This document shows, piece after piece, positions 8,085-63,985 of a DNA stretch of 64,000 bases; the first letter of the stretch is position 1, and every line of letters begins with the position of its first letter. Location of the stretch: NCBI RefSeq assembly GCF_963678975.1, contig NC_089275.1, forward strand, positions 25,295,977 to 25,359,976, in the 5' to 3' direction. The notes under the pieces are model-generated. The model saw only the letters and a list, made by a program, of their open reading frames with translations, made no database searches and was not told the origin of the DNA. Position numbers and translations under genes: made by a program. Source of the stretch: Dysidea avara. Lineage: Eukaryota; Porifera; Demospongiae; Dictyoceratida; Dysideidae.

Positions 8085-8335
8085 CATGCATAGGCGAATC
8101 TGAAGGAAGGCTAATTCTCTTGTATCCCTGGACTTATAATACAATGTTGACTAGCACCCCACTATATAAAGCCAGTGGACAAAAAAGAAGACAACAGTTA
8201 CGTATATATTATACAGTTTTAAAGTGTGTACTATATGTGAAGAAACTGAGGGAAATAAGTTTGAAGTTTGTGTCAAGGCTGAGATACTCTAACAGAGCAG
8301 TCACTATGCACTACTCTAATAGAACATGCAATTGA
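8085..8335. repeat. Dispersed repeat copy carrying the CTCTAATAGAG-type motif
   Basis: Shares its start (GCATAGGCGAATCTGA) and its end (AAATAAGTTTGAA followed by two motif copies, the first with C for T) with 46720-47010. This indicates a dispersed non-autonomous element. No protein is encoded. Confidence 0.55.
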
Positions 8336-8339
8336 TAAT

Positions 8340-9880
8340 ATTTTTATTGTGAATTATAAAATCACAAGAAGCACTGAGTAAACTTAACCATCAAACAGGC
8401 TCTATCTTAGAAAACTATGGTTAACACATGCTTTTCAAGGCATACACTTAAATGTTGAACAATTACAAATGGTGGTATATTCATAATAAGAGAGGAGTGG
8501 TTGGAGTTAAATCCTACTTCACCAGATGATTACATAGTAATCTTAAGTTCTACAGTAGTTTTCCCCTAACATTATCAATGTTTCAGTTGAGGTTTGGCCT
8601 GTCATGTACTCTACCCACTAGCAATTATGTTTTGTGTTTTTTAATTGGAGCAAGATCTTTTGTCTTTGAAAAGTTGTACATACAATGAAATAAATACAAG
8701 GCAATGATGGTCAAACTCAATAATGTCACCAAATATATAGCCATTTGAACAATGACATTACTTTTGTAACTTGTTTTGATACTTCATATTGCAAGTCTTG
8801 GTCATTTGGAGCAAACTAGTCATGATGTGTCCAAACTTGAAGGAGCTAGATTTGTATGACAATATACTGCTAATTGTTGTGGTAATCAGCATAATTTCAA
8901 AAATGCTGCTATAATATTATTATGTTTTCTAAGGATAAAATTGCAAATGTTTTACAGTGAAATTTTTTTTTGTTTTATAGTAAATAGTTGGTAGACTTAC
9001 CCAAACTTGCAAGAAAATTTAAAACATAATTTTCTAATAAAGGGTGCTCTAAAATTAGAACATTTGCATTAAATTAACACAATTATAATATGAAAATAAT
9101 GTGTACAAAATACCTGTTCCAAATTTAGTGGCTTTATGTTTCTTTGAACTAAAGTCATGAAAGATAGCTCTAAGTGTGTCATTTTTTGAAAGTTTATGAT
9201 GTCTCGTACTATACAACTTCATCTGGCATCTAGATTACATAATACATCACCTCTCTGTGGAGCTCATGTTCATGGAATCCTTTCCAGTAGCAATTTTTCT
9301 GCAGTAACTGTATAGGTTTATAGCTAAACGTATTTTGTGCATGCATACCAGAGCTGAGCGATAGTACAACTATCACTATCACAATTTGATAGTAACTTTT
9401 ATATCACGATAACGATAGTATCATGATAGTACTATCAGTTAATAAAGACATTCAATTTCACGTATACAACACATGTCATGAATACTCCAATTACGTACAC
9501 ACCACACATCTGCTTTTCTATAGTTCACCATAGCTATATAGCTATGCCCTACTCTCAGACATATAGCTATAGTGATCTAAAAGATTATTGTTGATCAGTG
9601 ATCAGAAATGCATGTGCTCTGGTGTGTGTGTGTGTTTGTGTGTAAGTCATCAATATACAGTTTCTTTATGTGCCTGAAGTGATATCCATATTCTATCAAA
9701 TGAAGAATAATGCAAAAGAATATGCCAATCTGAGTGAGAAATTGACAATCAAGTTTCAGTCTTAGTGATTGACCTGTGTGGAGGAAATGTTGTGGAGTAC
9801 AAAAATAAAATATGCAAGCATATGTGCATATGTGCATGTACGTAATTACAAAGATGATCAGTCTGGGGAGGGAAACCACT
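8340..9880. other. Non-coding AT-rich stretch
   Basis: No gene seen. A short region of overlapping TATCACTATC/GATAGTA units lies at about 9360-9440 and may be the end of a degenerate transposon. Confidence 0.35.
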
Positions 9881-9884
9881 CCCA

Positions 9885-10300
9885 AACTACATTCTTTGGG
9901 ACATTTTATGGTATACTGTATAGAAAAGTTTGGTGAAAGGAAACAAATTTGCTGCAATAGGATTTTGGCCAGAATAAATGTTAGCTAAACCAGATATGCA
10001 TTGAACAAACGGTTTGGCAGATTTAGTTCAGCAAAACACTGCTCACGGACACTCACCAAGCTTTTCTGCTATTTGGTAAAAAGGTTTTATTTAGGAAATG
10101 TGTAGGAGAACTTGGCAGTTGCATGATGCAACCTCTTTATCCTTAAACAGAGAGCAGGTTGAGCTGTGTATATTGTCCAGTTTCCCATGTATGCAAAAAT
10201 GAAATTAAATGTACATGGAACAGATGGAGTACAGATACAACTCATAGCTACATAGATGTGTGATATGCATGTAAGCTAGTTACAACAGAAGTAACCTGAT
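9885..10300. repeat. Direct duplicate, copy 1
   Basis: Matches 12645-13026 in the same orientation, including AAAGTTTGGTGA.AGGAAACAAATTTG, CTCACCAAGCTTTT, GTTTTATTTAGGAAATG and AAATTAAATGTACATGGAACA. The copies differ by scattered substitutions and small indels. It is an old local duplication or two insertions of one element. Confidence 0.65.
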
Positions 10301-11133
10301 TGCATGGCTTTGTTTCATTGTGTATAGTGGTGTATTGTGTATATTTCAGTCTCATCAGTCAGTGTTATGCCAACAAAGATTTGACCTTTCACCCTGTGTG
10401 CTAGTATACTACCATACTTTTAGGAGGGAGGGCAACTTAGTAAATAGTTGCACCTTATAACTGGCAAAAAGGTATACCTTAAAAGCAATCACACATCTAC
10501 ATATCACTGCACTACGGAAATAAAACTGAGTTTCTTTGTGCATTTTCTGAATAAAAAACTTAAATGAATTTGTACTATAAAATTTGCCTATAATGCTGGA
10601 ATATAATTATGCACATTGATGACATCATTTTGACTTTGTAAGGAAATATTAGGTTCCTTTCACAAAAATATTATTGGCAGTTAATTGGATGTTCTTTATG
10701 CACATTATCTATAGTATTAGACCCCACCACATCACTGATTTTTTTCCCTTCTACTATATCAGTCATTTTTTATACCATTGGTCGGGTGGCTGAATGTATA
10801 ATATTATAGCCTTTAGTAAGTTTGTTAAGTCAGTAACTAGCTAAAGCATGCAGTCTGAGAATATTACATTTTGGGTTGTATAAACTACCTACATACATTA
10901 ATAATACTGCCCACCTTTTCAATATTATATAGTTTATGTGGCTGTAACATACAAATTAAAGAGTTTTGTGTACAGCGGTATGACTACAAACACACCTGTA
11001 TAGAGTCTATATACTAATTTCAGATCACATCAAAAACATTTACACATAGCTACATGCATGGCATGTGTAACTAAAGCAAATACATAACTAAAAGTTTGCA
11101 ATGTAACAATTGAAGCCTTCATTCACCAACAGG

Positions 11134-25900: not shown

Positions 25901-28900
25901 CCAGTATTAGGTTTGAAGCGGGTGAATGCAGCCATATAACAGTAGATCCATACAGTGAATAGAATTGTAATGAACATTAATGCATTCCAGATGATGTAAA
26001 ACTTTGAACCAGGTACAACTATGTAGTCAATAAATTTCCTACAAACAAAATGCTTTATTATGAAACATGTATGCTAGCTATACGTACAGCTGTACCTGTA
26101 CGTCCTTTGAATTGTGCCAACCTATATTATACGATGGAAGATGTTGTAAGGTATACGTGTACAACTGTATACCTTCTGAGGGAGATCTTTGATTTGCCTT
26201 TGCTTTGATTGTCTAATACTTCCAAACCTGATTATATGTTAAACAGTTTATAGTATAGTATATTACATACAATATTACACATATACCTTTCTGCCTCTCC
26301 TTCTGACAAGATACCTTCAATGACTGCACCATCATCAATTAGTATTATTGAGTTGGGTTCTTCTTGTGCATTTGCACAACTTTCTGCAAACTGTGTCCTC
26401 AAATTAGTCCTCAACTGCAGACCAACTAGAATCCCATCAGTCCGTGATATACAAGCTTATACTGCACATTTAGCTTACTGATTGGGTAGTGCTTTTCAAG
26501 GATGTGAAAGTCACTTGCTGATAAAATTGCTAGTTCACATAATGTACCAGCTCTTATTGTAACTGTAGACATCATCTTACACATCAAATTGATCTATGGT
26601 GTATAGTAATATATTAACACAATAGTAAGTTACTGGGTAGCAGTGACAATTCTAGACTCAACATACAAGGGGGCACAGCATCAATGTTGTAGAATAGATG
26701 TATAAGTAGAGATTTCAAGGGGATGCAACCCCAGAAAATAGCTACGATTTAAATGTTGGGTTGAAATTGGTACTAAAACTTAAAATTGCTAAAGTGAATC
26801 TACAATGCAACTTTTCCCCAAAATGGGTGGGGAAGGAACTGTCTGTGTTTTAGTGAAACTTTCATTGCAAAATTTGCATTACAATTCATGAAATTTATGT
26901 ACATGAAAATTTCTCATTGCATACGAAAGTCTTATAGCAGTTTCCAACGACAATTCTTTATTATATGTACATACTTTTCCGAAGGAGTCACCAACATTTA
27001 GTGTATACTTGACTTGTCCTGACCCATCTATCACCTGTAATAGTAAAATTTCAAGGTAATAGACTGTTGGAGTAGTACAATTTAAATGCTTTAAGTTAAT
27101 AAAACTTAATTATACTACATGACTGAAGTACACCTCTATCTTACTTCAATATTCCCTCTCTGAAGAAAGTATAGACCATCTCCAATTTCTCCTTTCCTAA
27201 TGATCACTTCTCCTGGCAGATACAGTGCTGGTTTAATCATTTGTGACAGTTGCCGGAGATAGTGGGGACTGTTTCTCTGCATGAACTGTAAGGCAATCTG
27301 AAAGACAAATAATATAATCATTGTAGAAATATAGATGATGTTAACTACTATAGTGTTACTCTAAAACAAACTTACTGCATCTAACATGGTCTGGTGAGTC
27401 TCAGTGAACAAGGCTGTCCTAAGATTTTGCGGTAGCACGTTCAGTACATTTTCAATTTCCTCTCCTTTGTTTTCCTTCCACTACAATTAAAGGCTTTACT
27501 AAAAATCAATAGTAACAACTGTTACCATGTATTCATATCGGTCTACTACTCTTTTACGCAGAGTTTCTGGCAAAGTCATTTTCAGCTAAAAAAGACAAAA
27601 GAATGTAGTTATAAACCACATACAGTACCACTTACCATGTGCTCTCGAACAATCTTCAAATGATATTTGAATGTGCTAACTTTAGTTTCACGGTTTGTGA
27701 GTAGTGCAGCAAGTATACCAAGTATGATGCTCAGTTTGGTACATTCCACTATCATACAGATCAGGGCAGTTAACTTCTCCTTCCAATTTTGAGGGCGAAT
27801 CTCTCCATAACTGTGCACACACAAAAACCCACATGTACATAATTGTACATGCATTTTAATATGCTAACAATTTGAAGAGTATCATAGTCTTATACAGCTA
27901 ATCACAGCAAGGTTTATATTTATATCTCCACCAAAATAAAACAGTAAGCAATTTTTAGTATACAGTGTTTTCATCTTAAGCATGGAATCTGGTTATATGT
28001 CACTGACTTACCCCACTGTGGTAATTGTGGTAATACTCCAGTAGTAGGATGCTAAATATCTCTGATAGGATCCTGCTTCATTCATATTAATACCTGTAAT
28101 GTGTGTAACATGTAGTATGATGTGCAAATGTCTGAGCACAGACTATTGCAGGAGGAGATCCAGGGTTTGGCAAGGGAGGGTACACCAGGGTAGTAGGTAT
28201 ATGGAGCAGGGGGTCTGGGGGAGGGGGCATAGCCCCCCCCAGAAGCTACAGCTATTTCATATGATTCAGGACTACAAATTTTGATGTGGAGTGGTTTTAC
28301 GCACAAATATCTAAATTATACTGCTTTCTAAGTGATCAAGAGTTGTATAGGGATAAGTGACAGTCATGAGTAGTCAGCTATATAATATGAGCTTAAAGAG
28401 TGGCATACACAAGACCACGTGAATTTCATTTACAGAATATTCTTAGTAGGCTAAGTGTGCCCATGCATGGGATAGTGCTATAGATGCTAGTTTTTTCATA
28501 CTCAGCAACTATGGATGTCTCAATAGAGTTACAAGTGGTGACTGTTCTATTAGAGTATTTGACTGACTGCTCTATTGGATCTAGTATAAAATTTTTTTTG
28601 GAGGGGATGGGGGGCATGTGTCCCTGTGCTCCCCCTTGGATCCGCCACTGTACAATATTGCATAACTTTAGGACCACCTGGTATTAAAGCTCTGGCAACT
28701 AAAAATGGTGCATTTTACTTCTGTTGTAAAGCTTTCAGTATTTCTTTAAAGTACTCTAATAAAAGATGTACTGACACATACTGTATACAAATTACACAGT
28801 GGTCACCATACCATAGTCCAGTTCAGTGGTGTTAGCCCAACTTCCATTCTTACACCTACCACCATCACTGATGTTGTCACAGGCTATCATGTACCATATA

Positions 28901-31299: not shown

Positions 31300-32449
31300 A
31301 CACAATCACATCTATTGTAGTTACTATATGCAAACAGAAACATGCTGGTTAGCATGCAAAAGTAAAACTATTAGCTGCCATTTAGATGGTCACACCAATC
31401 CAGACGTCTGAGTACTAAAGGCAAATCCTACTACAAGAAGAAGTTCCCTGTAAGATGGCTATACTGTGACTCATGCACATGAGTGAGTACTAAATGACTA
31501 GCTGCATGTTTTATAAGACACATGGATAGATAAATGGCATTTGCTTTTCTGTTTACATAAGGATAGGCTGTAGCAAATGAGAGCAAAGTTTCTTGTCAAA
31601 TCATGCCCATCTGCAAAAATTTTAATTTCCTACCAGATAATAGTAATTCATATCATAGTACAATGATCATACAGAGCATTGAAATTTTTTAAAATTGTGT
31701 CCTTCATGTCAATGTGGCCAATGAAATAAAGTTAAAGTATAGTATGTTTGTTATAGCATCTCTTACAACTTTTAGAGAAGTTTTCTGAATGGATGTTCCT
31801 TCTACAAATGTTCTGTTAGCTGACGGCTATATTAGAGTATTTCAATTGACAGATGTACCCTACTTCACAGTTCACACTCCAAGTATACTGCACTCTTTTT
31901 ACCATCTCTAGGTATCAAACAACATAGTGTCCCTGCTGCAGCATAAGTAGGAGTTTCTGGAGCCTCAGGAACCTCCTCCTTATAATGTGATGTGATTATT
32001 ATACACAAACATAAGACGTGGAAATGTTGCAATAGATGCATTATAATGTGCACTCCCAAGTATTACTTGGTTTCAGCTCCTGAATTGTAATGGAGAACAG
32101 AACATAGAGTGTGTCTGCAAATGATCTGGATGGTAGATGGTATGAAATTACCAAGTATACAATGTAGTTACTATTTACTCAGTAACATATGTAGCACTGA
32201 TAAACTACATAATTTTTTCTACATAGTTGTTTGTCAGTTTCAAATCCTTTGAATACTTTGACTGCTCTATTATGTTAGAGCATCTGATTTCAGGGCACTA
32301 AGTTCTTTGGTAGAGCCCAGTCCCTACTTGTACTGTTCATGAGAGAATTTGTATGACATGTCAGCTTATAAGTTGGTCTCAGCAATGTAGCAAACAGCAA
32401 AGTAATTTTGAATACAGTTCAAGAAAATTATCATGCAATATATTAGGGA
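31300..32449. other. Non-coding stretch
   Basis: No gene or shared repeat recognised, apart from a broken CTCTATTA...TTAGAG motif near 32264. Confidence 0.35.
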
Positions 32450-33466: not shown

Positions 33467-33815
33467 CTTATCACCTGTCAAACGACAATAGCAGAGTCCT
33501 GGATCAAACTGGACCTGGCACAAACACACACACACACACATGCCACATACACGCACACATATTGGTAAGCATAATTCTAAAAACGAGAACATAAAATCAA
33601 CAACTAATGAAGACAAAACCACCGTAATTTATTTTGTTTCTTTGCATCACTACTGGACTCTTCCACTAAAATACTCTAATAGAGCAGTCACCTTCAATCA
33701 AGACTGCAGTGGGCCAGCCATCACTACTACTTGAAGTTGATTAATGGACATGGATTGGTTTTATATTGAATTAATTGTGGAGAGACTGCTGCAGCTGCTT
33801 CTTGATGACAGTCAT

Positions 33816-34122
33816 CAGGGGTGGATCCAGAGTTTGGAAAGAGGGGGGGCACTTTGCTGAAAAACAGTTGAAGACCAAAAAAAAAAAAAGGTCACAACAA
33901 TAATAGCTAGTTATTTACCCCAAATAGCTATATCACGTCTGTTATGTAAAATAAAATCCTATTTATAGCTTCATAGGTAAGCTATACACTGCCTCATGAA
34001 CATTGTGACTGCTTTATTAGAGTAATCGACTGCTCTATTAGAGTATCTCGATCTTGTATATGCAATTTCTTGAAGGGAGGGGGGACATTTGCCCCAAATG
34101 CCCCATCCTGGATCCGCCATTG
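33816..34122. mobile_element. Non-autonomous transposon, GGATCCGCC family, copy 2, with 5-bp duplication
   Basis: Terminal inverted repeats are CAGGGGTGGATCCAG and CTGGATCCGCCATTG. It is flanked on both sides by GTCAT (33811-33815 and 34123-34127), a probable 5-bp target-site duplication. The interior has two CTCTATTAGAG-type motifs (34010-34050). No ORF. Confidence 0.75.
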
Positions 34123-34127
34123 GTCAT

Positions 34128-35277
34128 ACTACGGTGATTACATTTCACACTACTTCTTTAGCTTGTAGGCTTATATATTTAATAGTAATGTTAGGTTAAC
34201 AGTTAATTAACAAAAAGAACACATGAGATGAGGTGGTATTACAGTCACTGACAACAATGTGGTACCGTGATGTAGCTTTTACTGAACTAAATGTGAGGGC
34301 AAAACTATTTTTAAAATGGTGCTATGGTTAGTATTGGGGATCAGACAAAAACACATTGCTATCTATGGACAGTCCATCAAATTCTTGACTGCTCTATTAA
34401 TCCTGTGTGATGTTTAATTTAGATTTAACAACAGCAAATGGTATAAAACACTCAGTTGGTTATTTCCATACTCCATTTTGTTCCTAACCCAATTCCATTT
34501 CCCTAGAATTGTACTTATCGCACACCACTATACACTATATTAATGCTGCATTGTTTATGTTGCATTACTTATACTGGTACCAATGTCAATAGCAGTGGTA
34601 CTCTCTATTCCATAAATATAGTAACTTCCTGTATTCACGCATTAATAAGATCAATCAAACAAGTACCACTTTTTACACCAGCAATTTGACCTATTAGATT
34701 ATAGACTGATTGAATTATTGACTTCTAGAGAATAGGCTGGGCCATGGAGGAGAGTGCTGCCCTATTGTGAGAACCCCAGGGAGCACAGTTTATACTCTTA
34801 TACAATATGGTTCTTTTCACAAAGAGGTCACCACTAATAGTACAATGTGTATATGGACCCATACAGTCAAGAGGTAGTCACTACTACTAATAGTCTTGTA
34901 GAACCAGGATCTAAATCCAATCAAGCAACCAAGAGACTGAATCAAGAAGCCCTTGATCAAGCACTCTGAGAGCTAATTTAACTTTAATGAGTATTTACGA
35001 AGCTTTTATGCTGTTGCCAAGTGACCACACTTTGAGGACAGTAGCAAGATCATGGAACAAAATAATTATAAGTGTCCAATTGCAAGGTTTCCACATTTCA
35101 GGGTGTCCTGTTTGAAGGATTCAACACTGCACGTTTGTAATTTAATGCTCTATTAGAGGTTAAACTCACGTGATTCATTTACCAGCGTTCCGGAAGAAAG
35201 GTGTGACGGTGCAGGGTAGATTTAATGCTAGCAGTTCAGTAAAAACATTCTAGTAGAAGTCTTCATATACCAGTATT
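34128..35277. other. Non-coding stretch upstream of REV1
   Basis: No gene seen. Single motif remnants occur at 34388 (GACTGCTCTATTAA) and about 35150 (CTCTATTAGAG). The REV1 promoter should lie in the last few hundred bases. Confidence 0.35.
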
Positions 35278-39089: not shown

Positions 39090-40090
39090 TATGGTAGTAC
39101 CGTTTAAGTAGGGATTGCCTTGAAAATGTAGTGCGCCACCCAAAATTCTGCCTTCAAAAATCATCCTAGAGACATTTTACATGATGAAAATCACCTTTAC
39201 GGGATAGTACTAGTCCATATAATATATAAAACAGCATTAATTAAATATAACAAAACACTTACAGGTGGCCGGATATAGAATTTTTTAAAAATCGCCAAAA
39301 CTTGAATTTTAGTCTCACTGCCTCACTCACTGACCAGTCGCAAGGCTAGAGGCCAAACAAAGCAGCGCATGGCCACATTTTATGCCACAATAACAAACTC
39401 ACCAGTGGGATGTGCCTTTTGGGGTTCCGACAGGTGTAGGCCCTCTGCGCCTTGTCTTTTCCTTTATCTTCAATCAGGCTGCTTGTCTTCTTCTTCATCC
39501 AACGGAACAATATTGAGACATTAATTTTCTGTATCAACACTTTCTTTCAGTAACATATATAGACACCACAGAATTATTTCAGAGCTGGATTTCAGAAGCG
39601 CTTCGTCCTGACACTACTATAAGACTCAAGTTTACGATTCGGATCCTGTTTGCGACCACTCCCATCGATTAAAGGTCTAGGTGGACTAATAGCGATAGAG
39701 TATGGAGACCACACCTCTTAACAATCTAGCTGTTTACTTAACAGTAAACAAAATGACCTCACCCCTTATTGGTCTAGCTAGCTGCACACCTCTTGGCTGA
39801 CTCGAGATATACTCTAATACAATAGTCACTCTAATACAACAGTTGTGTATGATATTCTACACAAGTTACATTGTAGCTAGCTATGCTACAACAAAAAACT
39901 AAACAAACTAGTATTGTAAATTTAAAAATGAAGTAGGGATCTATGCAACAAAAAGTAGTGAAACAAGAGATGAATGATGGTATTACAGCATAGCTCAGTG
40001 GGAAGGTCCCTACTTTGGCATTGTTTTTAAATTTAGATTATTTTTTTAAAATACTAGTAGTGTACTAGTATACTCAATACCTTGAATAAT
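39090..40090. repeat. ~1 kb dispersed repeat D, copy 1
   Basis: Colinear with 57885-58870: shared blocks include AAAATCACCTTTA, GGCCGGATATAGAAT, CTCACCAGTGGGATGTGCC, then the TACTCTAATAC motif and finally AAAAAGTAGTGAAACAAGAG. Both copies keep a minus-strand frame starting MKKK and ending in a GTGAGT donor, so the unit may include a captured exon. Confidence 0.65.
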
Positions 40091-40496
40091 ATATAATAAC
40101 TATGTATGATAAACAAGTGTGGCTGTGACTGCTTAATTAGAGTATCTTGATTTCCCTGATGTCTCAAGTGAGTTATACAATATATTAAGGAATGTGGTTT
40201 GCCATGTCTAGTTTTCTACAGCAAAACTATAGCTTATTGTAGCTAGATCATTAAAGGCTATGGTCATGTTGTGCTTTGATTGTTAAATGTAAGGCAGCAT
40301 GTTTCAATTGTCTAGGGCCCAGCAGCGATTTATAAGTGTAGCTACATGTATCTACTCCACCTACAGTGGCTTAAGTGCTTCAAATAGTTTTGTGGAATCT
40401 AAATATGCTCCTTTAAGGAATGTCAATGCAGAAAATTAATGCCTCAGTATGATTTCCTGGCATTAATAAGGCGAATACATTATTGAAGATTATAGG

Positions 40497-41379: not shown

Positions 41380-41596
41380 TGTAAGACCCAATCGAATAAC
41401 AAATCTTCCACAACAGGTTAATCAATGTATAAATGCCAGACTCAACAATGTACAGTCATTGCAAGGTTTTATATGGTACATGATGTAATGTTATGTAGTT
41501 ATGTGATGATGTCATATAGTTACAATGATTGTGTCACACATGCATAAGTGTTACAAGTTAATTACATTAGTTAATTAGTTAGTTCTACATACTACA
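41380..41596 (-). repeat. 3' LTR of the gypsy element (217 bp)
   Basis: Nearly identical to 45818-46139 apart from a gap of about 100 bp, implying a fairly recent insertion. Confidence 0.9.
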
Positions 41597-41631
41597 TTCG
41601 CCCCTCCCAGTGTTAGCAAGTGTTTCTGTCA

Positions 41632-44565: not shown

Positions 44566-44607
44566 TGCTTAATTGGTTGCTGACTGTGACAGGTGTAGTG
44601 GTAAAGT

Positions 44608-45788: not shown

Positions 45789-45817
45789 AGCTGCTTGCAA
45801 CTGTCTTCTGCTACCAA

Positions 45818-46139
45818 TGTAAGACCCGATTGAATAACAAATCTTCCACAACAGGTTAATCAATGTATAAATGCCAGACTTAACAATGTACAGTCATTGC
45901 AAGGTTTTATATGGTACATGATGTAATGTTATGTAGTTATGTGATGATGTCATATAGTTACAATGATTGTGTCACACATGCATACAGGGGGGGGGGGGGG
46001 GGGGGGGCTGTGCCCTGGGTTAGCTATTGCCTCCCCTAGGTTTATACCTAAAGCCTTGAGAAATGGAAAGGTTTAATTGTAAGTGTTATAAGTTAATTAC
46101 ATTAGTTAATTAGTTAGTTAGTTAGTTCTACATACTACA
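45818..46139 (-). repeat. 5' LTR of the gypsy element (322 bp, enlarged)
   Basis: Matches the other LTR but carries about 100 extra bases, including a run of 21 G at about 45987-46007 and GCTGTGCCCTGGGTTAGC. The extra piece sits at CATGCATA|AGTGTTA of the shorter LTR. Confidence 0.85.
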
Positions 46140-46719: not shown

Positions 46720-47010
46720 CTGAGCATAGGCGGATCTGAGAGGGGACCAGGGGGCTTTCCCCTCCGGCCCCTCTGTCGCCTCTCTTGGACTTACAGGACT
46801 ATATTGGCACCAGAAACAGGAATCAGCATTCGCACTGTATTCAGAAGTACAGAAAGCCAACAGGCAAATAGAAGATAACAGTTATAAATGCACTTTACAA
46901 TTATAAACCGTATACACTGTGAAGAAAATGAGACAAATAAGTTTGAATTTTTGTGCTAAAGATCGAGATATTCTAATAGAGCAGTCACTACTCTAATAGA
47001 ACAGTCACAA
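46720..47010. repeat. Dispersed repeat carrying two CTCTAATAGAG-type motifs
   Basis: The start GCATAGGCGGATCTGAGAGG and the end (AAATAAGTTTGAA, GAGATATTCTAATAGAGCAG, CTACTCTAATAGAACAGTCA) match 8085-8335. Confidence 0.6.
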
Positions 47011-47229: not shown

Positions 47230-47488
47230 CAGTGGAACCTCAGTTATCCGAACCCCTTGGGACCAGGGGTGATCCATAAGTCTGAAAAGTCCATATCTCT
47301 GAAGCTGTGTATAAGTGTATAAAGATTTTTTTTTAAATTATCAGTATTATCAACTACCCTACTAGAACAGTCGCTCTAATAGAGCAACTGTTCTAATAGA
47401 ACTCTAATAGAGCAGTTATTTCCGTAGTTCGGTTAACTGAGAATCCAGATACACTGTAAGTGAGGTCCGGATAACTGAGGTTCCACTG
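47230..47488. mobile_element. pogo/Tigger-like MITE with TA target duplication
   Basis: 24-bp terminal inverted repeats beginning CAGTGGAACCTCAGTTATCC, 23 of 24 matching, flanked by TA on both sides. This terminus is typical of pogo/Tigger transposons of the Tc1/mariner superfamily. The 259-bp interior has no transposase but includes a cluster of CTCTAATAGAGCA motifs (47352-47418). Confidence 0.85.
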
Positions 47489-47880: not shown

Positions 47881-48177
47881 GTGGATTTCACATATTTCTG
47901 TACTTTATAAAACCCCGAAACCAGCCTATGGTTGACTTTGAGGTTTGTTTTTACTCACATTTCTTCTTTTCTATGCAGATATAATGATGATTATTGAAGA
48001 CAGACTTATAAATGTATTTCATTGCATGATTTAATTCAATATTTGATAATATTAATGTAATACTCTAATAGAGTGCACATTTTTTTGAGGACTTCTAATA
48101 GAACATACGTAGAATATTCTAGAACAATCTAGTACTTCTATTGGTAGATCCATGAAGTTACAAATGTTTGATTAGTA

Positions 48178-48608: not shown

Positions 48609-48647
48609 CAGTGCAATTACAGAAACAAGGCCATGTGATTTGGGATG

Positions 48648-49932
48648 AAGGTTACGGAATAGTTTAAAATGCGTGGGCGGAACAAATTACAAAACCTGCT
48701 TTAAACCAAGCAGGGATAAATAATTTCAAAAACTGTGTTGTGTTAGCAATACAACTAATTGTGCTTGTTTGTTTTTACTACAGAACAACGACTGTTCTTG
48801 GGTGTGTGGTCCACAATAGAGTGATGTTTAATAAAAACGCGCCACCGAAAACCAGACTAACAGATTACTGAATCCTTATAATTTCAACACAAGTTACTAA
48901 ACAACTAAAATATCTAGGTCCTGTGGAAGCGATTTTTTAAGTTACTGGTTGTATAGATGTTTTATTGAACTTTTAGTACTTTTTCGAGTGAAACAAGCTC
49001 TTTGAAGGCTTGTATCTGAGTCACTGGGAAGAAACATGCCAAAAACGCTTCCACAGGACCTAATAAATTTAATATACAGTATCACTATACCCCAGAAATG
49101 CCAATAGAGCCTACAGCTTTTGCTGTATTTGGCGGCGGAAAAACATGGTAGTGACAGCTGGAGCTGAGCAATGTACGGGCTAGTCTCGTGCCCAGCCGGG
49201 CTCGCGCTAATGCGCAAACACCGTCTGGTGACAATGCTCAAGTTTCTTGGGCCCGGAAGTGCGATCCAGCCAAAATATTGGCTGGCCAATCAGAATCGAC
49301 GAGTTGCATAATCGCATGAATGTATTGGAAGTAGACGAAAAAGCAGACTATTTAAAGCCATTTTATCAGAAGTTACTCACCTATAAAAAAAATAGGTTGT
49401 CCAAGATGTTTGTTGTCAAGTTGTTTTTCCGATCTCACTGTATGAATTGTGACTCGACGTTTAACCAGAAATGAAACGTGTCCTCTACTAATACAATGAA
49501 TGAAGAGATCGCAACTAGTAAATTCCCTATTCTGAGTTTTACTTTATTCCTACCCATTTTCGAATGGTTTTTTCACTGTTTTAAAATGATTATGCAACTC
49601 CTTGATTCTGATTGGCCAGCCAATATTTTGGCTGGATCGCACTTCCGGGCCCAAGAAACTCGAGCATTGTCACCAGACGGTGTTTGCGCATTAGCGTGAG
49701 CCCGGCTGGGCACGAGACTATGTACGGGCTGGCTTATTTGTGTTACTACAACAAATTGTAGTGTTCCACCTGCCTCAAACTACACTGTAGCTACATAAAA
49801 ACATTAAATATGAAGGGCTTCACCTTCATTTAAAACTTTTCACGCTGCTAGCCTGGTTTTATGGGCTTCTCAAAAAGTAACGATAGGCATTCAAAATTTT
49901 GAATGATTGTCTGTGACTGTACCGTAGCCTTA
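48648..49932. mobile_element. TTAA-flanked DNA transposon A, copy 1 (with a nested element)
   Basis: About 745 bp of element A excluding the nested element. Ends GGTTACGG ... CCGTAGCC, with TTAA at the right and TGAA at the left, compared with an intact TTAA pair in copy 2 (54151-55632). The two copies are colinear, for example CAGGTCCTGTGGAAGCGATT-like blocks and TTTGGCGGCGGAAAAACATG. No transposase. Confidence 0.75.
49181..49720. mobile_element. MULE-like foldback element B nested in A, 9-bp duplication
   Basis: 540 bp with inverted arms of about 117 bp starting TAGTCTCGTGCCCAGCCGGG. Flanked by TGTACGGGC on both sides (49172-49180 and 49721-49729). The other A copy (54151-55632) has the uninterrupted empty site. 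Long inverted repeats with 9-bp target duplications fit Mutator-like elements. The arms are far more GC-rich than the surroundings. Confidence 0.85.
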
Positions 49933-50036
49933 ATTGCACTCCTACTATTGGGACTAATGTATGGCAAATTAAATCACTATGTGATTATAAGCAGAGAAAT
50001 TTCATTTATAAAGCAGAAATTAAGTGAAGTGATCAG

Positions 50037-50112: not shown

Positions 50113-50179
50113 TTTTTCCAACATTTTTTGCACACCTTTTTTACCCCGCGGTGACTGCTCTATTAGAGTATCTTGATTC

Positions 50180-51880
50180 CGCGATTTTACACTTGCTTGG
50201 TTTTTGCTTTATAACTTTGTCACTGTAACTCTATCACTATTCAAACTATCAAAAGGCACTGCTACAATGATCAGCCTATCTACACACCAATTTTCAAGTT
50301 ATTTCTATACTCAGTTTACCCTGCAGCTGTGACAGAAGTTTGATCTGTTTTTACGTGAATAAATGTTCATAACTCCTTGAATATTCCTCAGATTTACAGA
50401 AAACTTGGTACGTGAATCCACCATTACATGCTCTTCATTTGTGCCAAAGATCGAGGCAATCGAGTTATACGTTTGTATTTTATAGCAATTTTTGCAAACT
50501 GTGCAAAAAGAAATCGAAGCCCCTGTATGGCATAAGAAGAAAAAAACAAAGAAATTAAAACAAAACTTTGAACACCCCTATCTCGCAAATTCCTGTTGCG
50601 AATTTAATCAAATTTACTATGTGGCGTACCCTACCTGAGGGACAGCTATAATGCAAAAATGGTGTGCTTTGGAGAAGGGGCCATGGAGCTATGCACGTGT
50701 GAAAAAGCTGTTTTCTTTCTTCCTGTCAATATAGTCGCCGGCTTTCTTGGCCGCACGACACACTACTGTGTGTCTTGATACATTGATTTGACTGTTGTAT
50801 TAGGGTGAATTCTCTATAAGGGTATCTCAATATGGTAAGCTTTCTAACCAAAGTCTAAATACATGCCACCTAGGGGCATGGACCTGGGTAGCTCAGGTTC
50901 TGGCTATGCCTCTGGTGCAAGGGACTGAAAATTGTATATCACCTTAAGTTGTGTAATTTCCACATCAATGCATAAATTTATGGATGCTGTTTAATGGGCG
51001 ATATTTGTGCAAAACCTGTCATTTCATGATAAGATTAACATAGGACTAGAATACTGTAGTTGTGCATTTTAGGTGCTTTATTGTGCCATGAACTACACAA
51101 GTGCCATTATCATTCTATGACTTACGGATGATTGTTATACTCGCTATGGCCAATCAGTGAACACTCAGCTGGATAACACAACAGCTTGAGCTAAATTTCT
51201 ACAAACCAGAAATCACTCCATATTTTGGTGCATGACTTGCCATGTCACTACTTTTCAATTGCTTTATGATAACAAGCATAATAGTAACTTTAGTACCAAT
51301 TGTAGCACTGGAGATAATGACCACATGTACAAAGTGTGAATTACATGTATGTTACCGGTCATACAATGATGTAATGACGCCAATAGGATGTGACTTATGG
51401 TGCCTTATGCTGTGTACATGACTTTTCGAATTCTTTTGAGAAAATTATTGTGTCCAAGTAAAAGCTTTTAAAAGAAGAATGTTTATGAAGCTGTAATACA
51501 TTAGGTTTTTGGTTATCCAACCATTTGTTCGACTGAATTGATTATTGTGACTGCTCAATTAGACTATTTCAATAAATGATGTTTGTTCAATTAGAGTATA
51601 CAAATAAGTTCTAACATACATGTACAGTACATGTATATGTGGGAATTGGATTATATTTCAACAATTCACTTATCCAAATGCTCAACATTAGACTGTAAGT
51701 TCCTCTGTAAAACATACATTTAAACACCCATTGTAAGTGATGGCATGATATGCAAGACAGTTTCTTTCATTTCCAGCTCACTTATAACATGACCACATCA
51801 ATCATTTCTTCCGTACTTACTTAACAATGGTTTAACACGCATATACAATACACGCACGTATGCACGCACACACCAACACC
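50180..51880. other. Non-coding stretch
   Basis: No gene recognised. One motif variant lies at about 51550-51600 (GACTGCTCAATTAGAC). Confidence 0.35.
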
Positions 51881-53390: not shown

Positions 53391-53413
53391 TTACCTCACA
53401 CTCCGATATATAC

Positions 53414-53521: not shown

Positions 53522-54150
53522 CAGTAGCAATAATATATACCTAGCGAGCCATTGTATACGTAGTTAACTATAGTCTACACAATACACGGCCAAATTCTTG
53601 GGACTAAAGCGGGTATGGATGGGAATGGAAATGACCAATAGAAAATGGCTAATAAAAGCTCCGAGTCATTGTCTAACTAAATGTCACCAAAACATGCTTC
53701 TTTGCACTCTTTGAATTGTAGTGTTGCTGGATTATTCCACAAAACAATTGAATAATCTAATAGAGCAGTCGAACAATTCCATAATTAGCAAACAATGAAA
53801 TGCTACAATTTACTTAACTAATTAACTAACTACCTTGATAAAGGTAAAAGGTTTTTAAAGCATATTTATAAGACAGTGACTCAGCTGCAGGGCTTTGGAA
53901 TGCTGCATCCACAGCCTCAGGATGACTGAGGCTGAGTTACTAGATGTTGCTGTTATTGGATGGGCTGGCAAAATCACATTGCCAGGGATAACTAAGCTAG
54001 GCTGTATGCCTATATCCGGATTGCTTCCAGTAATCATTTGCTTTGTTTTCCTAGTTGGTTACATGGTTGTCATATATGCTGTATGTTGTATGTAAGCAAG
54101 TATCAGAAGTCTGTTAGTCTGTATGTTCGATTTTGTGTGCAACTATTATT

Positions 54151-55632
54151 AAGGTTACGGAATAGTTTAAAATGCGTGGGTGGAACAAATTACAAAACTT
54201 GCTTTAAACCAAGCAGGGATAAATAATTTCAACAACTGTGTTGTGCTAGCAATACAATTGTGCTTGTTTGTTTTTACTACAGAACAGCGACTGCTCTTGG
54301 GTGCGTGGTCTACAATAGAGCAATGTTTTATAAAAACGGGCCGCCAAAAACCAGACTAACAGATTACTGAATCCTTATAATTTCAACACAAGTGGCTAAA
54401 TAACTAAAATATCTAGGTCCTGTGGAAGCGATTTTTAAAGTTACTGGTTGTATAGATGTTTTATTGAACTTTTAGTAGTTTTTTCGAGTGAAACAAGCTC
54501 TTTGAGGCTTGTATCTGAGTCACTGGGAAGAAACACGCCAAAAACGCTTCCACAGGACCTAATAAATTTAATAAGGTAAATGCGGGTATTTCCGGACACT
54601 CTTTGATAAAACCGCTCTAACATTGCACTCTAAGACAAACTCTAGGAACCGTTGTAAAGCCTATCTTATGGTGCATCTGTAGTACAAATTTAGTTTCGAT
54701 ACAATCAACTGCTGAGGAGTTATAAACCGAAACTTAACAGCGTGTAAAAATGCAACATGCGGCTAATTCCAGACACTTCGAATAACAAGCAAGTAGAGCC
54801 TTCCACAGGTTACCAATCCTCTTTCACAAGTATAGAGACTAAAGTACCACTCATCTGCAGCTTATAAATCAAGTAGAAAGTTCATACCATTTGGGAGAAA
54901 GCAGCAGTGTGTATTTTTAAAAGTTTATGTAATTCGCAAATGTTTTCTTTGTATTTCAACCGAACAGCTGCTGAAAAATCAACTGCCACTCCGCCTGTGT
55001 TGCATGGATTCTTATGATTTTTGTTATGCAATTAGCCAAGGGTATGATCTTTCTATAACTCTTTGAAAATTGAAAATATGAACTAGGACTGACCGGTTAG
55101 ATTAACATTTTCAAAGTTTTTGAACAAAATTACCCATGATTGCGCTACAAATTTGTGTCAAACTTTGCGGTGGAATAACGGATTCACTTCAATTTTGGTT
55201 TGTAGATAGGCCATAGGACACTGCATTAGCATACCAAATTATAGGTCCGGGGATTCTACCATTGTTGAGAACGACCTAAGTGTCCGGAATTAGCAGCTGT
55301 CCGGAATTATCCGCACTTACCTTATACATTATCACTATGCCCCAGAAAAGCCAATAGAGCCTACAGCTTTTGCTGTATTTGGCGGCGGAAAAACATGGTA
55401 GTGACAGCTGGAGCTGAGCGATGTACAGGCTGGCTTACTTGTGTTACTACAACAAATTGTAGTGTTCCACCTGCCTCAAACTACACTGTAGCTACATAAA
55501 AACGTTAAATATGAAGGGCTTCACCTTCATTTAAAACTTTTCACGCTGCTAGACTGGTTTTATGGGCTTCTCAAAAAGTATCGATAGGCATTCAAAATTT
55601 TGAATGATTGCCCGTGATTATACCGTAACCTT
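54151..55632. mobile_element. TTAA-flanked DNA transposon A, copy 2 (with nested element C)
   Basis: GGTTACGG ... CCGTAACC between perfect TTAA duplications, as in piggyBac or Kolobok type transposition. Colinear with copy 1, interrupted by element C. Its right end lies only about 15 bases past the stop of the CARD gene. Confidence 0.8.
54574..55322. mobile_element. Non-autonomous transposon C, TA duplication, nested in A
   Basis: 749 bp with ~25-bp inverted repeats AGGTAAATGCGGGTATTTCC and AGGTAAGTGCGGATAATTCC (complement of the right end), flanked by TA. Element A copy 1 has the empty site. No ORF. Confidence 0.85.
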
Positions 55633-55647
55633 AAGAAGGGACAATAA

Positions 55648-57100
55648 TTATGGTGCATGCATGAGCTCTATAGCAGCGTCTTCAGTCCTCTGCTCATATA
55701 CTACTTCAGCTTGTACACCTATTTGAAGAAATAAAAACACCAATGCATTTAAATGTACAGTAGTTTAGATATTAATTGTATTTGCCTATCTAAGCATCTA
55801 ACCAAGATTTCCCTGGGAGGGGGTCCATGCCTTTATAACAATAACTTCCATCCTGCAGTTCTTGTAATGTCTGACCATCTTAGGTTCATGTCCGGCCAAC
55901 TAACAGTCTGTTAGGACAAATGTCCTTGCAGTCTTTAAGAGTTATAATCCCCTCTGTTGGAGACACCCCTCAAACTTAAAACCGGAATACAGATTGAGAT
56001 ACTCTAATAGAGCTACCCTGATAAAGCAGACATCCAAGTGTAAATGTGACTACTCTATTAGAGTATCTTGAACTTTACAATTGCAAGTAAATGCCTTACA
56101 GTTACAGAGGAAAACCAACGTAATTTGCTGTATTTCAGAAATCACTCCAGAAATAATTACGTAGGTTAAGCAAAGAAGAGAGTTGCTAGAAAGAATAATA
56201 GGGAGCTTTACAGCATAATTATTCTGCAGGTCCCCTACACATTCACATAATATGTATGCACAAGACATGCAGTGATACATACCGGAAAGTTTGCTCTCAA
56301 TAATCTTGAGGAGATCTTTATGACCTGCATGGTCTTTTTCATCCTTTAGTGCCTGAGTAAACTTCTTTACAACATTTCTTTTACTGGCTTTTGTCAAAAT
56401 TTCATTGACAACTGCTGAAAAACACATAGTGGGAGAATATCCGGTTCTTCTAGTGATGTCATTGTACTCAAATTGAGTCAATATCCCTTGTCTCATCAAG
56501 TGTGGTGAAAGAGAGTCAAAATCAACTAATTCTCTGGACTTCTGTTCACATAGAATGCAGATAAATTTGACAGTAGGATTAGAAGGATCTATAAAACGAC
56601 AAATATTATGAAAAAATTATTCAGTAGTTTGGATCAATATTTCACCACAGCATTGCATGTGATCCACTTGGGAGAAAACTCTTTGGTACATCACAATGAC
56701 ATACAATGGGTAAAATTCACATACTATATATATATATAAAAAAAAATTTTATTGCTTAATTATGTGGTGAAATACGTAAGACTTGAAATAAGAAAACTCA
56801 TCTAACTCACATACCATTGTATTTGCATATTGAGAGTAAAAATCTTTTGTTTTGTTTCTGCACATTAAGGACTTTGATAATCCAAACACTGAAATACACT
56901 GTCCAGTAAACTAGATTTTATGTACGCCTTTTAAACTCCCATAGTACAAGAACTGTTAAAGCTATTTAAAAACTACAAACACCCTTTTACTCACTGTTAA
57001 ATTTTGGTTTAAATGGTCCCATCCTTTGTCGCACCCAGAACTTCATGCTGTGATACAAAATAAATATCTCTTCATCTTCCCTCTTCACACAACAGGCCAT
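55648..57100 (-). CDS. Small CARD-domain protein (three exons, 160 aa)
   Basis: Likely a death-fold adaptor or decoy binding other CARD proteins in apoptosis or immune signalling. Exon 1 (56995-57100) begins MACCVKREDEEIFILYHSMK and ends in phase 1 (A|GTGAGT). Exon 2 (56283-56588) carries the CARD: SPHLMRQGILTQFEYNDI, then VNEILTKASKRNVVKKFTQA and HKDLLKIIESKL. This fits the pattern of helices 2-6, including the ...G.LT..E... helix-2/3 start. Exon 3 (55648-55718) ends the protein with LMHAP. All junctions are phase 1. Exon 2 would also accept, in phase, the zinc-ribbon exon at 62066, so a larger DEATH-zinc-CARD product by alternative splicing is possible. No enzymatic domain. Confidence 0.65.
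55880..56236. repeat. Inverted partner of 53136-53390, in the CARD gene intron
   Basis: Complement blocks to 53136-53390. It also contains two full CTCTAATAGAG-type motifs (55993-56008 and 56045-56070). Confidence 0.55.
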
Positions 57101-57884
57101 AACTTGGCTGTACTTTGCACTATGGACTTTCTCTTGACATCATGTTGCTCATCACATGATGGAAATTCAGTTGGTATATAAATATCATGTGATTAATTAA
57201 ATGGCTGATAATGAATGAAATGATTCAACACTTTGTAGCAGATGAGCTCCTCGTTGTATGTTAAAACTTTATCTACAGTTGGATAGTGTAGCGACTGGCT
57301 AGAAGCAATCAGCTAATACATCGTGATGAAGCCATGCATGCTAATGAAGTGACAATAGATTATTGATTGCACACACCTTTTTATGCCATAAGTAAACAAC
57401 ATCTGTCCATTGTTTTTGCTTTTGTATAAATGTTTTACAAGTTCACATTGTCATCAGTGGTTGTCCAAGTCATCATAAGAACACGCAACCTGTAGCTGAT
57501 CCTTCAAGGCCACGATACCTCTTACTTACAACAGCTTGCTCCTTGCCAAATAATTAATAAAATCTGTATTTCTTAAAATTCCTAATTTCCTTGTACCTGT
57601 GTTAATACAAAATGTCATTGATATACTGGTATACCCGTAAACCTGCATAATCCAGAAAACTGGATTTGATAAAAGAAATGAACTTAACATGCACAATACT
57701 TTATGGGCACGGTTTCTAACAGCCATATCTCATAAAGTGTCCATCCAGTCTCTCTTAGTTTGATCATAGAGATGAAAAGTAATGAAACTAGTGTTGCACC
57801 GATAACCAGCCAATTATTCTGCTAACAGACATTAAGCAACAGAAATAGCCGATACCGATAACTGATCCGATATCAAACAGTACG
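57101..57884. other. Upstream flank of the CARD gene
   Basis: No gene seen. TGTTGCACCGATAACCAGCC at about 57793 resembles a transposon terminus. Confidence 0.3.
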
Positions 57885-58870
57885 GTAGCATGGATCCCCC
57901 CAAAAATGACATGTGCCGCCTAAAATGCCGCCTTTAAAAATCACCCTAGAAACATCTTACATTATGAAAATCACCTTTATAGAATAATATTAGTCCATCT
58001 AACATCAAATACAGCATTAAAAACAAGAAAACACTTACAGCAGGCCGGATATAGAATCACTAAATTGCAAATTTTTGTCTGCCTGCCTGCCTGCCTGTCT
58101 GCCTGACCACAGTAGTGAGACTGGAGGCCAAACAAAGCAGCACATGGCCACCTCTTTACGTCACAATAATAAACTCACCAGTGGGATGTGCCTTTTGAGT
58201 ATGTGGCCTCTGTGCCTTGTCTTTCCTTTCATTGTCAATCAGGCTGTTGTTCATCTTTTTCTTCATGCAATGAAACCATATTGAGGCATTAATTCTTCCA
58301 TATCAACGCTTTCCTTGAACAGCATATTTACGTAGATGCCACAAACTTACAGTGTATTTAAGTGCTTACGCTCAGTAGATAACTGTAACTTCACGATATA
58401 CTAATACCACGCCTATATTAAGGTTGGTTAATAAAGATTGAGCACCAAGATCACACCTCTTGACAATGTATTTACTCAGTCACAATGATACAACCCTGTT
58501 ACTACTGTATTCATAATGCTAGCACAATGAAAATATGAAATAGTGATACACCCTCTGGTAGGTGAAAGGCCAACTCAAGATACTCTAATACAGCAGTCAT
58601 TCTAATAGAACAGTCACACATGTATAGCCGCACACTATAACAAAAACCAAACAAACCAGTAAATTAAAAATTTAGGGATCCAAGCGATAAAAAGTAGTGA
58701 AACAAGAGACAAATGATGGCATTACAACAGCATAGCTTGGTGGGAAAATCCCTACGTACTTTGGCATTGAACAAAAATCATTGTTACAACATACCAATGT
58801 AGGGATTTTCCCACCAAGCTATGTTGTGATGAGGATGAGTGCTAGTGTTAATAGTGTACTAGTATATTAA
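57885..58870. repeat. ~1 kb dispersed repeat D, copy 2
   Basis: Colinear with 39090-40090. A (CTGC)n tract at about 58078-58105 interrupts it. The right end is a foldback around GGTGGGAAAATCCCTAC / GTAGGGATTTTCCCACC. Confidence 0.65.
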
Positions 58871-60828: not shown

Positions 60829-60946
<118 letters not shown>

Positions 60947-61935: not shown

Positions 61936-62060
61936 AGTAGGGATTTCCCAACGAGCTGTGCTGTAATAGCTACCATCATCGATCTCTTGTTTCACTACTT
62001 TTAACTGCTTGGATCCCTACTTCACTTTTAAATTAATTTTTAATATACTAGTAGGATACA
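61935..62060. mobile_element. Family F/D-type MITE fragment next to a coding exon
   Basis: TAGGGATTTCCCAACGAGCT, then CTCTTGTTTCACTACTTTT and GGATCCCTACTTCA, ending TATACTAGTAGGAT right at the splice donor of the exon starting at 62066. Confidence 0.6.
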
Positions 62061-62065
62061 CTTAC

Positions 62066-63183
62066 TTGTATGTAGAGTATAAGGATTCAAAAATTTTTCT
62101 GCAACAACAAATCTTTTCTCTTTGCATTGTTGGCCACGCTTTTGTGGACAAATAACAAACAAACGTGCCTTTCCCCTGCCACCCATTCTCCTGTAAACAT
62201 ACAGTTTTACAACTAGATGATTGATATGGAATTACTGTATGTTACTTACAATGCCATCGGCTTTTCACACTTGCAAATATCAAATATTTTAGTGGGCTCC
62301 TTTCCTGACCACCTACATTATACAAAACATTCATCGTTCAACACAAACAATAACTGTATAATTAAACATGTGACCCACTGAGTGAAAACCCAAGTAGTTT
62401 GTATAATTCTGTTTTGTAATGAACTGGGTAAAATCACGTACTACAAACACACGTTTCAGTAAACAGAGAAACAAGACTCAAATTAAAATAAATCCAGATT
62501 CACCTCTTCATGGAGAGTAGGAGTATCATAATGCTTGTTTCATTTCTGTACTATGAAAGTTGTGTGTTTGTTTGTAATGTAGTCATTTTTATTGTCACTG
62601 TTTCTTAGCCTTGATCTTACTGATACATAGCATGGGTGGATCCAAGCCAAAAATTGTACCATCATGAATCTCCCAGTTCATCGTGAACACAATGAGACAA
62701 GTTTTAACTCCATACATAGCCTGTTGCACTTGTGACTTTGATGCTTTAATTTATGTATAATGTTGAGGGTGACCCCCATGATGGTTAATTTTTGGGCCTT
62801 AGCTTAAAATCAGCACATGGGAAAAACTAAACACATTATTTGTGTGCTTTTGTACATGTGCAACTATATAATTATTACATACCCTTTTTCTAAGTCTTCA
62901 ATCGCTTTGGTCAGGTCAGAATAATCACATATGGCTTTTTTTAAATTTCTCCAGTTAGCTTTTTTGCTTTCTTTTCTCTTAGCACCTCTCTCACGCCAAG
63001 TAGCCAATACAAGAAGGAATGCTCTTTTATCTTTATCTTCAAACCCATCTACATTGCCAGATATTGTATCCAGAGTAGTTTCAGGTAAACTCAAGCAATT
63101 CCCAATATTCTTCCAATCAGTGTAGCTATCACATTTTAACAACATAGAAAAGTCCTCCAAGGTGGGCAATGCAGTATCAAACC
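62066..63183 (-). CDS. DEATH-domain protein with GRF-like zinc ribbon (partial gene)
   Basis: Three minus-strand exons chain with matching phases. 62883-63183 carries a DEATH domain (DFSMLLKCDSYTDWKNIGNC, then LSLPETTLDTIS and KKAICDYSDLTKAIEDLEK), with the conserved Trp of helix 2. 62250-62312 and 62066-62190 follow, encoding CKCEKPMALRMGGRGKARLF and VICPQKRGQQC. The C-x-C, then C and C spacing, with LR and GR...F between, resembles the GRF-type zinc finger of nucleic-acid enzymes. Junctions are phase 2. The last exon has a strong donor (CAA|GTAAGT, phase 1); reading through instead gives a stop within the adjacent MITE. The entry phase (1) shows that more exons lie further right, outside the window. 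DEATH is well supported, the zinc assignment moderately. Confidence 0.65.
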
Positions 63184-63905
63184 CTGTAATGATTGAAACA
63201 ATAACTAATACACACCTACCATAATACTACAATTAAGGCAGGGTAGTATGTAATTCATATTTAATAGACAAATTCCATAATAAGGCTTTATAGCATATAG
63301 AAATAACTGTTATTCCTAGCAACCTGAAATTCCCATTGTTTTTAGGTGATAATGTCGAAAGTAACTTCTCCAAATTTTGAAAGGATAGTACGTATATATA
63401 TGTCATAAAGGATTTTTTGAAGGGGGGTTCCAGCACCAGCATTGAGTTACTAGAAGCAGGGGTCTGGGGGCGCAGCCCCCAGCCGCTGAGAGACTTTCAA
63501 TATTTTAATAAATTAAAACTCAGCAAATTGCTATATTTTATGCAAAAAGTACATTAATTATGATGCATTAAGTGCCCCTGGGATGAAGGTAGTACTAGAT
63601 AAAGTCACCTAGTGGAAACAGACAGCATAACACATAGAGACACATATAGTAATCTGTAAGTGATGGTTATATCTCACTGTGGTATAGGGGCCATGAATCC
63701 ACTGATACAAATGACAATCAAAACAATATAACTATACAAATATGCATAGCATGAATTCATTTCGCATAACACAAGTGATAAATTACTGGAGCTCTATATC
63801 TTTAAACACTGCACACCAAAGCTATAGCAGTATAAGGTCATGCTAAGTTTTGCATTTAATGTTGGAATGTTTGAAAAACTTCATATGGACATGGATATTT
63901 ACATG
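63184..63905. other. Intron or upstream DNA of the DEATH gene
   Basis: No exon recognised. GGGGTCTGGGGGCGCAGCCC at about 63459 resembles the ends of the GGATCCGCC transposon family. Confidence 0.35.
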
Positions 63906-63985
63906 CATGTTCTATTAGAGTATACCTGACTGCTCTATTAGAGTATATACCTGACTGCTCTATTAGAGTATATTGATCTTTTTAA
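63906..63985. repeat. Three tandem CTCTATTAGAGTATA motifs
   Basis: TTCTATTAGAGTATACCTGA, then twice CTGCTCTATTAGAGTATA, spaced about 25-30 bases. This is the densest cluster of the window-wide motif in a direct array. Confidence 0.85.

Follow-up and report, generated by a model that had tools for sequence, protein, structure and literature searches.

A directional module common to the interiors of unlike small DNA transposons in the sponge Dysidea avara

The window described here is a 64,000-base stretch of the Dysidea avara genome (C4:25295977-25359976; the assembly comprises 108 contigs and 550,814,596 bases), in which a 20-bp word, ATACTCTAATAGAGCAGTCA, with the core CTCTAATAGAG, recurs on both strands. 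Our data show that this word belongs to a module that forms an internal, one-directional block in several unlike families of small non-coding elements. An earlier, sequence-only reading had listed many of the sites, and its coordinates proved correct to within a few bases, but the list was incomplete and omitted, among others, those at 31821, 32259, 34386, 35142, 50789/50806 and 51548/51580.

At the left of the window two forward units, 27 bp apart, occupy 8284..8330 within a host repeat (repeat A) that is common to the site at 46968, where two forward units lie 20 bp apart (46968..47007), and to L065, the L-numbers denoting sampled loci that are either 10-kb stretches or neighbourhoods of exact copies. 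Two reverse-strand units at 28539..28583 lie in a GGATCC-type element of ~490 bp (~28160-28650, ends placed by eye, no clear target duplication), followed by two single reverse-strand units found with a position matrix (31821..31840, and a weak one at 32259..32278) and a single exact forward unit at 33671..33690. A delimited host is the 307-bp GGATCC-type miniature inverted-repeat transposable element (MITE) on the reverse strand at 33816..34122, defined by family alignment, with the terminal inverted repeat (TIR) CANNGGNGGATCCAG (type CAGNGGCGGATCCAG) and a 5-bp target-site duplication (TSD), GTCAT, at 33811-33815 and 34123-34127; its two reverse-strand units, 21 bp apart at 34006..34046, lie ~75 bp from the right end and point inward. 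A single reverse-strand unit with a divergent tail was found by matrix at 35142..35161. Both copies of repeat B (39096-40023 is ~68% identical to 57879-58769) carry two forward units 17 bp apart, at 39809..39845 and 58580..58616, and a matrix-detected reverse-strand unit stands past the first copy at 40126..40145.

The second delimited host is a forward-strand pogo-like MITE of 259 bp at 47230..47488, whose TIR CAGTGGAACCTCAGTTATCCG matches at 16/16 positions with TA on both sides, and which holds three forward units and one degraded inverted unit (47386) in its middle (47354..47418). Further to the right are a forward unit with a weaker one at ~48090 (48060..48109), and an exact reverse-strand unit at 50152..50171 in repeat F1, a repeat with members in L013, L015, L016, L030, L056, L068 and L069. 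In F1 (L013:4750-6300, L016:1146-1900, L030:6500-6700) the module stands directly ahead of tandem arrays with a period of ~60 bp by eye. The matrix also detected two pairs of diverged reverse-strand units, 17 bp apart at 50789..50825 and 32 bp apart at 51548..51599, and a single forward unit at 53752..53771. Convergent units occupy 55999..56066 (55999 and 56013 forward, 56047 reverse), and finally three reverse-strand units, 23-25 bp apart, lie at 63904..63971 in a family with L011, L024, L041, L076 and L084, where the window end cuts the cluster.

The neighbouring sequence includes a 795-residue open frame of the NLR kind, with NACHT and leucine-rich-repeat regions (4657-7041), an uninterrupted REV1-like open frame of 841 residues (35257-37779; BRCT, IMS and REV1_C), and a Gypsy-like long terminal repeat retrotransposon at 41380-45984 with a zinc-knuckle open reading frame (ORF), a reverse transcriptase/RNase H/integrase ORF and 167-bp flanking direct repeats that are 98% identical. 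A segment is duplicated at 48645-49933 and 54148-55634, 90-99% identical in pieces; an element of 540 bp (49181-49720), whose inverted arms of 133 bp are 97% complementary, is present in the first copy and missing from the second, and the second has ~750 bp of additional DNA. An Rfam scan of the window gave no match at gathering scores, and no RNA gene or tRNA was found in it.

The word is far more frequent than chance predicts. In the window the exact core CTCTAATAGAG occurs 11 times against 0.02 expected from dinucleotide shuffles, the ATACTCTAATAGAGCAGTCA 20-mer, at no more than 3 mismatches, 19 times against 0.01, and TCTAATAGARCAGTC, at no more than 2, 30 times against 0.30; the position matrix finds 33 sites, compared with 0.73 for an order-2 Markov background. 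The excess extends to the whole genome: the 17-mer CTCTAATAGAGCAGTCA has 16,301 and 16,406 exact copies on the two strands (32,707), and its reversed control has 0. On a 210-kb genome sample (21 stretches, each 10 kb long, drawn from 15 contigs; one opens contig C1 and the others are at hand-chosen round-number positions) the matrix found 52 sites and its reversed control 1, a density of ~248 sites/Mb that extrapolates to some 135,000 sites genome-wide; the window is denser than this sample, holding 33 sites in its 64 kb. The initial 1.8 Mb of contig C1 supplied the copies beyond the window and the 10-kb stretches. At the start of that contig (L003:1-906) both strands have several open frames, as a telomere-like short tandem repeat would. 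The shuffles and reversed controls rule out a chance origin of the 20-bp word. An exact-match search of prokaryotic and viral collections returned 0 matches in genome contigs, and two matches to the 17-mer in viral contigs, which lack the flanking ATA and look like chance.

Comparison of 108 clusters (from the window, the 10-kb stretches and the exact-copy neighbourhoods) gave a full form of ~29 bp, AAGATCRAG followed by the ATACTCTAATAGAGCAGTCA 20-mer, the AAGATC prefix often being missing from additional units. Clusters hold 1-4 units (four in L051); of 68 clusters (those of the window, of the 10-kb stretches and of seven exact-copy loci), 38 have a single unit and 30 have at least 2. The impression that sites often come in pairs was borne out, and the pairs are mostly head-to-tail: adjacent units within 120 bp are on the same strand in 35 cases, convergent in 3 and divergent in 1, and genome-wide there are 5,813 head-to-tail exact TCTAATAGARCAGTC pairs with up to 30 bases between them versus 1,204 convergent ones, the latter figure reporting every place on both strands (reversed controls 0). 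Among the matches listed, the spacers of head-to-tail pairs were varied in kind, and the convergent pairs resembled a small set of recurrent sequences. The first unit of the 30 multi-unit clusters carries GAG in 18 and GAA in 7, and the last unit GAG in 6 and GAA in 13, so that pairs tend to have a polarity, as inherited dimers would.

The core had been described as a perfect palindrome, which is true of the consensus, but its halves are unequally constrained and its mirror positions are not co-conserved. Across the 78 units that the window and the 210-kb sample gave at a matrix score of at least 14 bits, with no exact-match selection, the T of the mirror pair at position 4 was altered 14 times and its partner A 0 times, and the C at position 5 was altered 2 times and its partner G 21 times, these exact counts being biased because the 14-bit matrix itself weights positions. 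Double changes occurred solely at the outermost mirror pair (4, of which 3 were compensated). The constraint is thus asymmetric, as for a protein reading in one direction, and the palindrome of the module looks incidental. A functional palindrome, hairpin or symmetric recombination site is not supported, the two half-sites not being constrained alike.

Flank alignment, which the sequence-only reading had proposed as a way to boundaries and target duplications, gave hosts with TIRs and TSDs of 5 bp, 8 bp or TA. An automatic search for a TIR with a TSD succeeded at 27 of 127 clusters, compared with 30 of 300 random points, and 19 of the 27 hosts are convincing because their termini recur: 8 with TAGG..ATTATGC ends, 3 with CAGGGCCGCCC, 5 of the GGATCC type, 2 with CATAGGCGG and 1 pogo-like. 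Beyond the window, GGATCC elements with 5-bp duplications were found in L030, L040, L054 (duplicated as L057) and L073. Elements with TIR CAGGGCCGCCC (L032, L062, L083) and with TIR TAGG...ATTATGC (L003, L005, L051, L061, L067, L074) have 8-bp duplications, examples being gctattaa, gaccggag, ccttctgg and ttagtggc; the TAGG..ATTATGC hosts L043 and L053 were accepted by the TA rule only, and the CATAGGCGG elements have an 8-bp duplication in L042 and a 5-bp one in L090. The TIRs of delimited hosts start with CAG, CAA, TAGG or CATAGG. With their 8-bp duplications and TIRs that we take to be of hAT type, the TAGG..ATTATGC and CAGGGCCGCCC hosts conform to hAT MITEs, and window 47230-47488, with its TA duplication and long TIR, conforms to a pogo/Tigger-like element, our name for it presuming from the TIR type; a single hAT rule fails to cover every host, given the 5-bp TSD of the GGATCC elements and the TA of the pogo-like host.

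The delimited module hosts are all short and lack coding capacity. Where both ends of a GGATCC, GGCCGCC or CATAGGCGG element could be placed, the module faces inward and begins 68-144 bp from one end; in TAGG and pogo-like hosts it begins 124-253 bp inside, roughly one third to one half of the way through the element. Terminal signatures are also over-represented around the module, the GGATCC signature in 18 of 108 clusters against 108 of 2,000 random windows, GATTATGC in 9 of 108 against 27 of 2,000, and GGCCGCC in 4 of 108 against 0 of 2,000. A candidate autonomous source of hAT type is present at L016:6553-9251, with a 607-aa ORF, Pfam hAT matches at E 0.001 (below curated cut-offs) and the 8-bp duplication CATGTCTG.

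The occurrence of the word in unrelated families, a central claim of the sequence-only reading, was confirmed by comparing the interiors of 23 elements with termini and module masked (threshold E 0.01). GGATCC interiors, despite 5-bp rather than 8-bp duplications, matched one CATAGGCGG element at E 5e-14 and one CAGGGCCGCCC element at E 3e-12, and TAGG interiors matched each other. No similarity at E 0.01 was seen among these 23 masked elements between the GGATCC/GGCCGCC/CATAGGCGG group, the TAGG group and the pogo-like element; since these three groups are alike in the module alone, one ancestral repeat does not explain all assignable copies. Matches across differing TSD lengths suggest that interiors have changed ends at least once, and the interiors common to different TIRs and TSD lengths (L030, L032, L040, L042, L083) are consistent with an apparent exchange of termini. 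Clustering of motif-masked flanks placed 77 of 135 oriented clusters in 17 families of 2-17 members, with 58 in none, and a single ancestral repeat for all copies is disfavoured by these 17 families together with the three groups that are dissimilar outside the module.

Within families the module tends to keep its place. It was in register in 12 of 19 left-flank neighbours, a count from which 79 right-flank rows dominated by the F1 tandem arrays were excluded, and of the four non-self matches to the F1 left flank those in L015 (82% flank identity) and L030 (63%, one change) retain prefix and unit. No clean empty site was seen among the sampled loci, and no genome-wide empty-site search was made.

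The module is also better conserved than its surroundings. We compared unit cores chosen without exact-match selection in the 135 of 143 within-family pairs that had at least 50 aligned flank bases, and found identities of 0.910 in cores (1739/1911), 0.889 in the 9-bp prefix (1045/1175), 0.777 in between-unit spacers (297/382) and 0.818 in flanks (19309/23614), the core-flank test leaning to high flank identity because gapped columns were omitted. A simulation of neutral cores that included the detection requirement gave 0.842 at a flank identity of 0.82. Of the 14 families that offered 20 or more core columns, 13 had cores above flanks, and within families cores diverge about half as fast as flanks. 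The 64 pairs with flanks at 0.7-0.8 had cores at 0.866 versus 0.798 simulated at 0.75, and core identity was 0.938 in the 42 pairs at 0.8-0.9 and 0.971 in the 24 pairs above 0.9.

These results point to the word as the core of a cis-acting directional module that non-autonomous DNA transposons may keep because it aids their spread, a candidate protein site, and on the sequence evidence we would give this reading about an even chance. Several observations weigh against it. In the 5 pairs with flanks of 0.5-0.7 (flank identity 0.683) cores show no excess (29/39 = 0.744 versus 0.753 simulated at 0.65), and the least-diverged family (L024/L045/L080) is reversed, with flanks at 0.980 above cores at 0.933. 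Throughout, the pairs are non-independent, and each member of a pair was admitted through a matrix derived from this very motif, the same matrix whose position weights enter the mirror-change counts. The module is missing in 7 of the 19 left-flank neighbours and in 2 of the 4 F1 left-flank matches (L013 and L015, at 60-61%). None of the four terminal signatures accompanies 73 of 108 clusters, so that about two thirds of sites are without a signature-assigned host, and the pogo-like signature is hardly enriched (5 of 108 clusters versus 51 of 2,000 random windows), which makes the pogo-like association not a statistical one but a link through one intact element and two partial relatives. Finally, the only whole autonomous hAT seen, that in L016, has no unit above 14 bits.

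The strongest competing explanation is neutral hitch-hiking, whereby one ancient interior would repeatedly have gained termini through exchange, capture or nested insertion, leaving the module as its functionless last remnant. That ends do change is indicated by the GGATCC interiors, with 5-bp TSDs, that recur in CATAGGCGG and CAGGGCCGCCC elements with 8-bp TSDs, the GAG/GAA polarity of the 30 multi-unit clusters points to common ancestry, and the cores of the five most diverged pairs lack excess conservation. A remnant, however, should not repeatedly be the best-conserved part, as the cores are against flanks, in 13 of 14 families, and against spacers. Constraint also varies sharply between adjacent positions, and we consider this explanation unlikely.

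A subterminal repeat bound by the transposase of one hAT lineage would account for the inward-pointing module 68-144 bp from one end of GGATCC, GGCCGCC and CATAGGCGG elements, and hAT and CACTA transposases do bind internal sites. One transposase, however, should not yield differing termini and TSD sizes (here 5 bp, 8 bp and TA), the TAGG and pogo-like kinds carry the module 124-253 bp in, a third to halfway along, and the autonomous hAT in L016 is without a unit above 14 bits; this origin is decidedly improbable. More doubtful still is a host regulatory or small-RNA target site that MITEs have spread, to whatever benefit of the host: a directional motif of ~20 bp with unequal constraint on its positions could suit multi-finger binding, but the ORF-rich stretch at 8331-28538, where one of the many ORFs was tested and matched ion-channel families, contains no matrix site, and the window gave no Rfam match at gathering scores. 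The options of an independent mini-element or an insertion hot-spot for other elements, both raised by the sequence-only reading and suggested by several unit copies with unlike spacers, are very improbable, since in delimited hosts the module lies within rather than beside TIR- and TSD-bounded elements, is in register in families, and is accompanied by no clean empty site among the sampled loci.

Among the options that were put forward for the word, a protein-binding site remains the best, if a putative one. Under the reading of a cis-acting module, hAT-like, GGATCC-type and pogo-like MITEs would carry it internally in 1-4 copies, mostly head-to-tail, and a sequence-specific protein, encoded by the host or by an autonomous element, would read it in one orientation. 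Binding would raise the chance that an element spreads, possibly by opening or de-silencing chromatin or by recruiting replication or repair factors; elements with the module would then out-multiply those without it, through selection at the transposon level, and the module would reach new families when interiors gain new termini. A single transposase is unlikely as the reader because termini, duplication lengths and the distance of the module from the end differ, and the better fit is a factor of the host or a trans-supplied anti-silencing factor. Although speculative, and in our view somewhat improbable in this full form, it may be that one factor is exploited across superfamilies, the module serving as an amplification or anti-silencing ticket that moves by exchange of ends and is selected at the transposon level. 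The usual account of MITEs is one of ends alone, with a transposase needing little beyond TIRs. If the proposal is true, an interior conserved across elements of different transposases would mean that a non-transposase factor limits spread and that the module is its DNA target, and with tens of thousands of copies, competition for a host factor or a shared anti-silencing factor would be directly testable.

The hosts of the module resemble hAT and pogo-like MITEs in general, which are short, non-coding and TIR-bounded with 8-bp or TA target duplications; an internal module common across superfamilies is, to our knowledge, not among their defining features. Long directional zinc-finger sites are carried by other mobile elements, namely the Su(Hw) sites of gypsy, of which there are several per element with unlike spacers, and the CTCF sites spread by short interspersed elements, and here the likeness is by description only, the protein in our case being putative. 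A text search of the literature for the 11-mer and six 12- to 13-mers (both strands) returned unrelated subjects only, as judged by title, and in the parts of the literature on sponges, MITEs and common motifs that were available no close case was noticed besides the coral elements below; one such source, in the portion available, lists AT-rich motifs of 3'-untranslated regions (PMC4432959).

In Arabidopsis VANDAL elements, as far as the accessible portions of these papers tell, a short VANC-binding motif is repeated in non-coding parts with variable repeats, and the VANC6 motif is also present in AT9TSD1, which is unrelated to VANDAL (Hosaka et al. 2017, PMC5735166; Sasaki et al. 2023, PMC10398659). 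Both systems have a short repeated motif in non-coding parts of DNA transposons. For VANC, however, the same portions describe a known binding protein, a demethylating effect and a motif of 8-9 bp (PMC5735166; PMC10398659), whereas our module is 20-29 bp long, its delimited hosts are short and without coding capacity, and its protein is putative.

The closest precedent, by analogy, is that of the coral CMITEs, six MITE families with different TIRs that, according to the sections available, have in common an interior of 75 bp whose conservation exceeds that of the TIRs, of unknown origin and with a proposed role in transposition (Wang et al. 2010, PMC2872659). Families with different TIRs and a conserved interior in common are found in both cases, and between our host groups, too, it is the module that is common while the termini and the remaining interior are not. 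CMITEs are described there as piggyBac-like elements of ~100 bp with a TTAA TSD, a CCCTTT-type TIR and an estimated ~1,600 copies (PMC2872659), termini that were seen in none of our delimited hosts. Measured against that description, the hosts of the sponge module have TSDs of 5 bp, 8 bp or TA, the common part is 20-29 bp long and present in 1-4 copies at variable spacing, and its exact 17-mers alone number more than 32,000.

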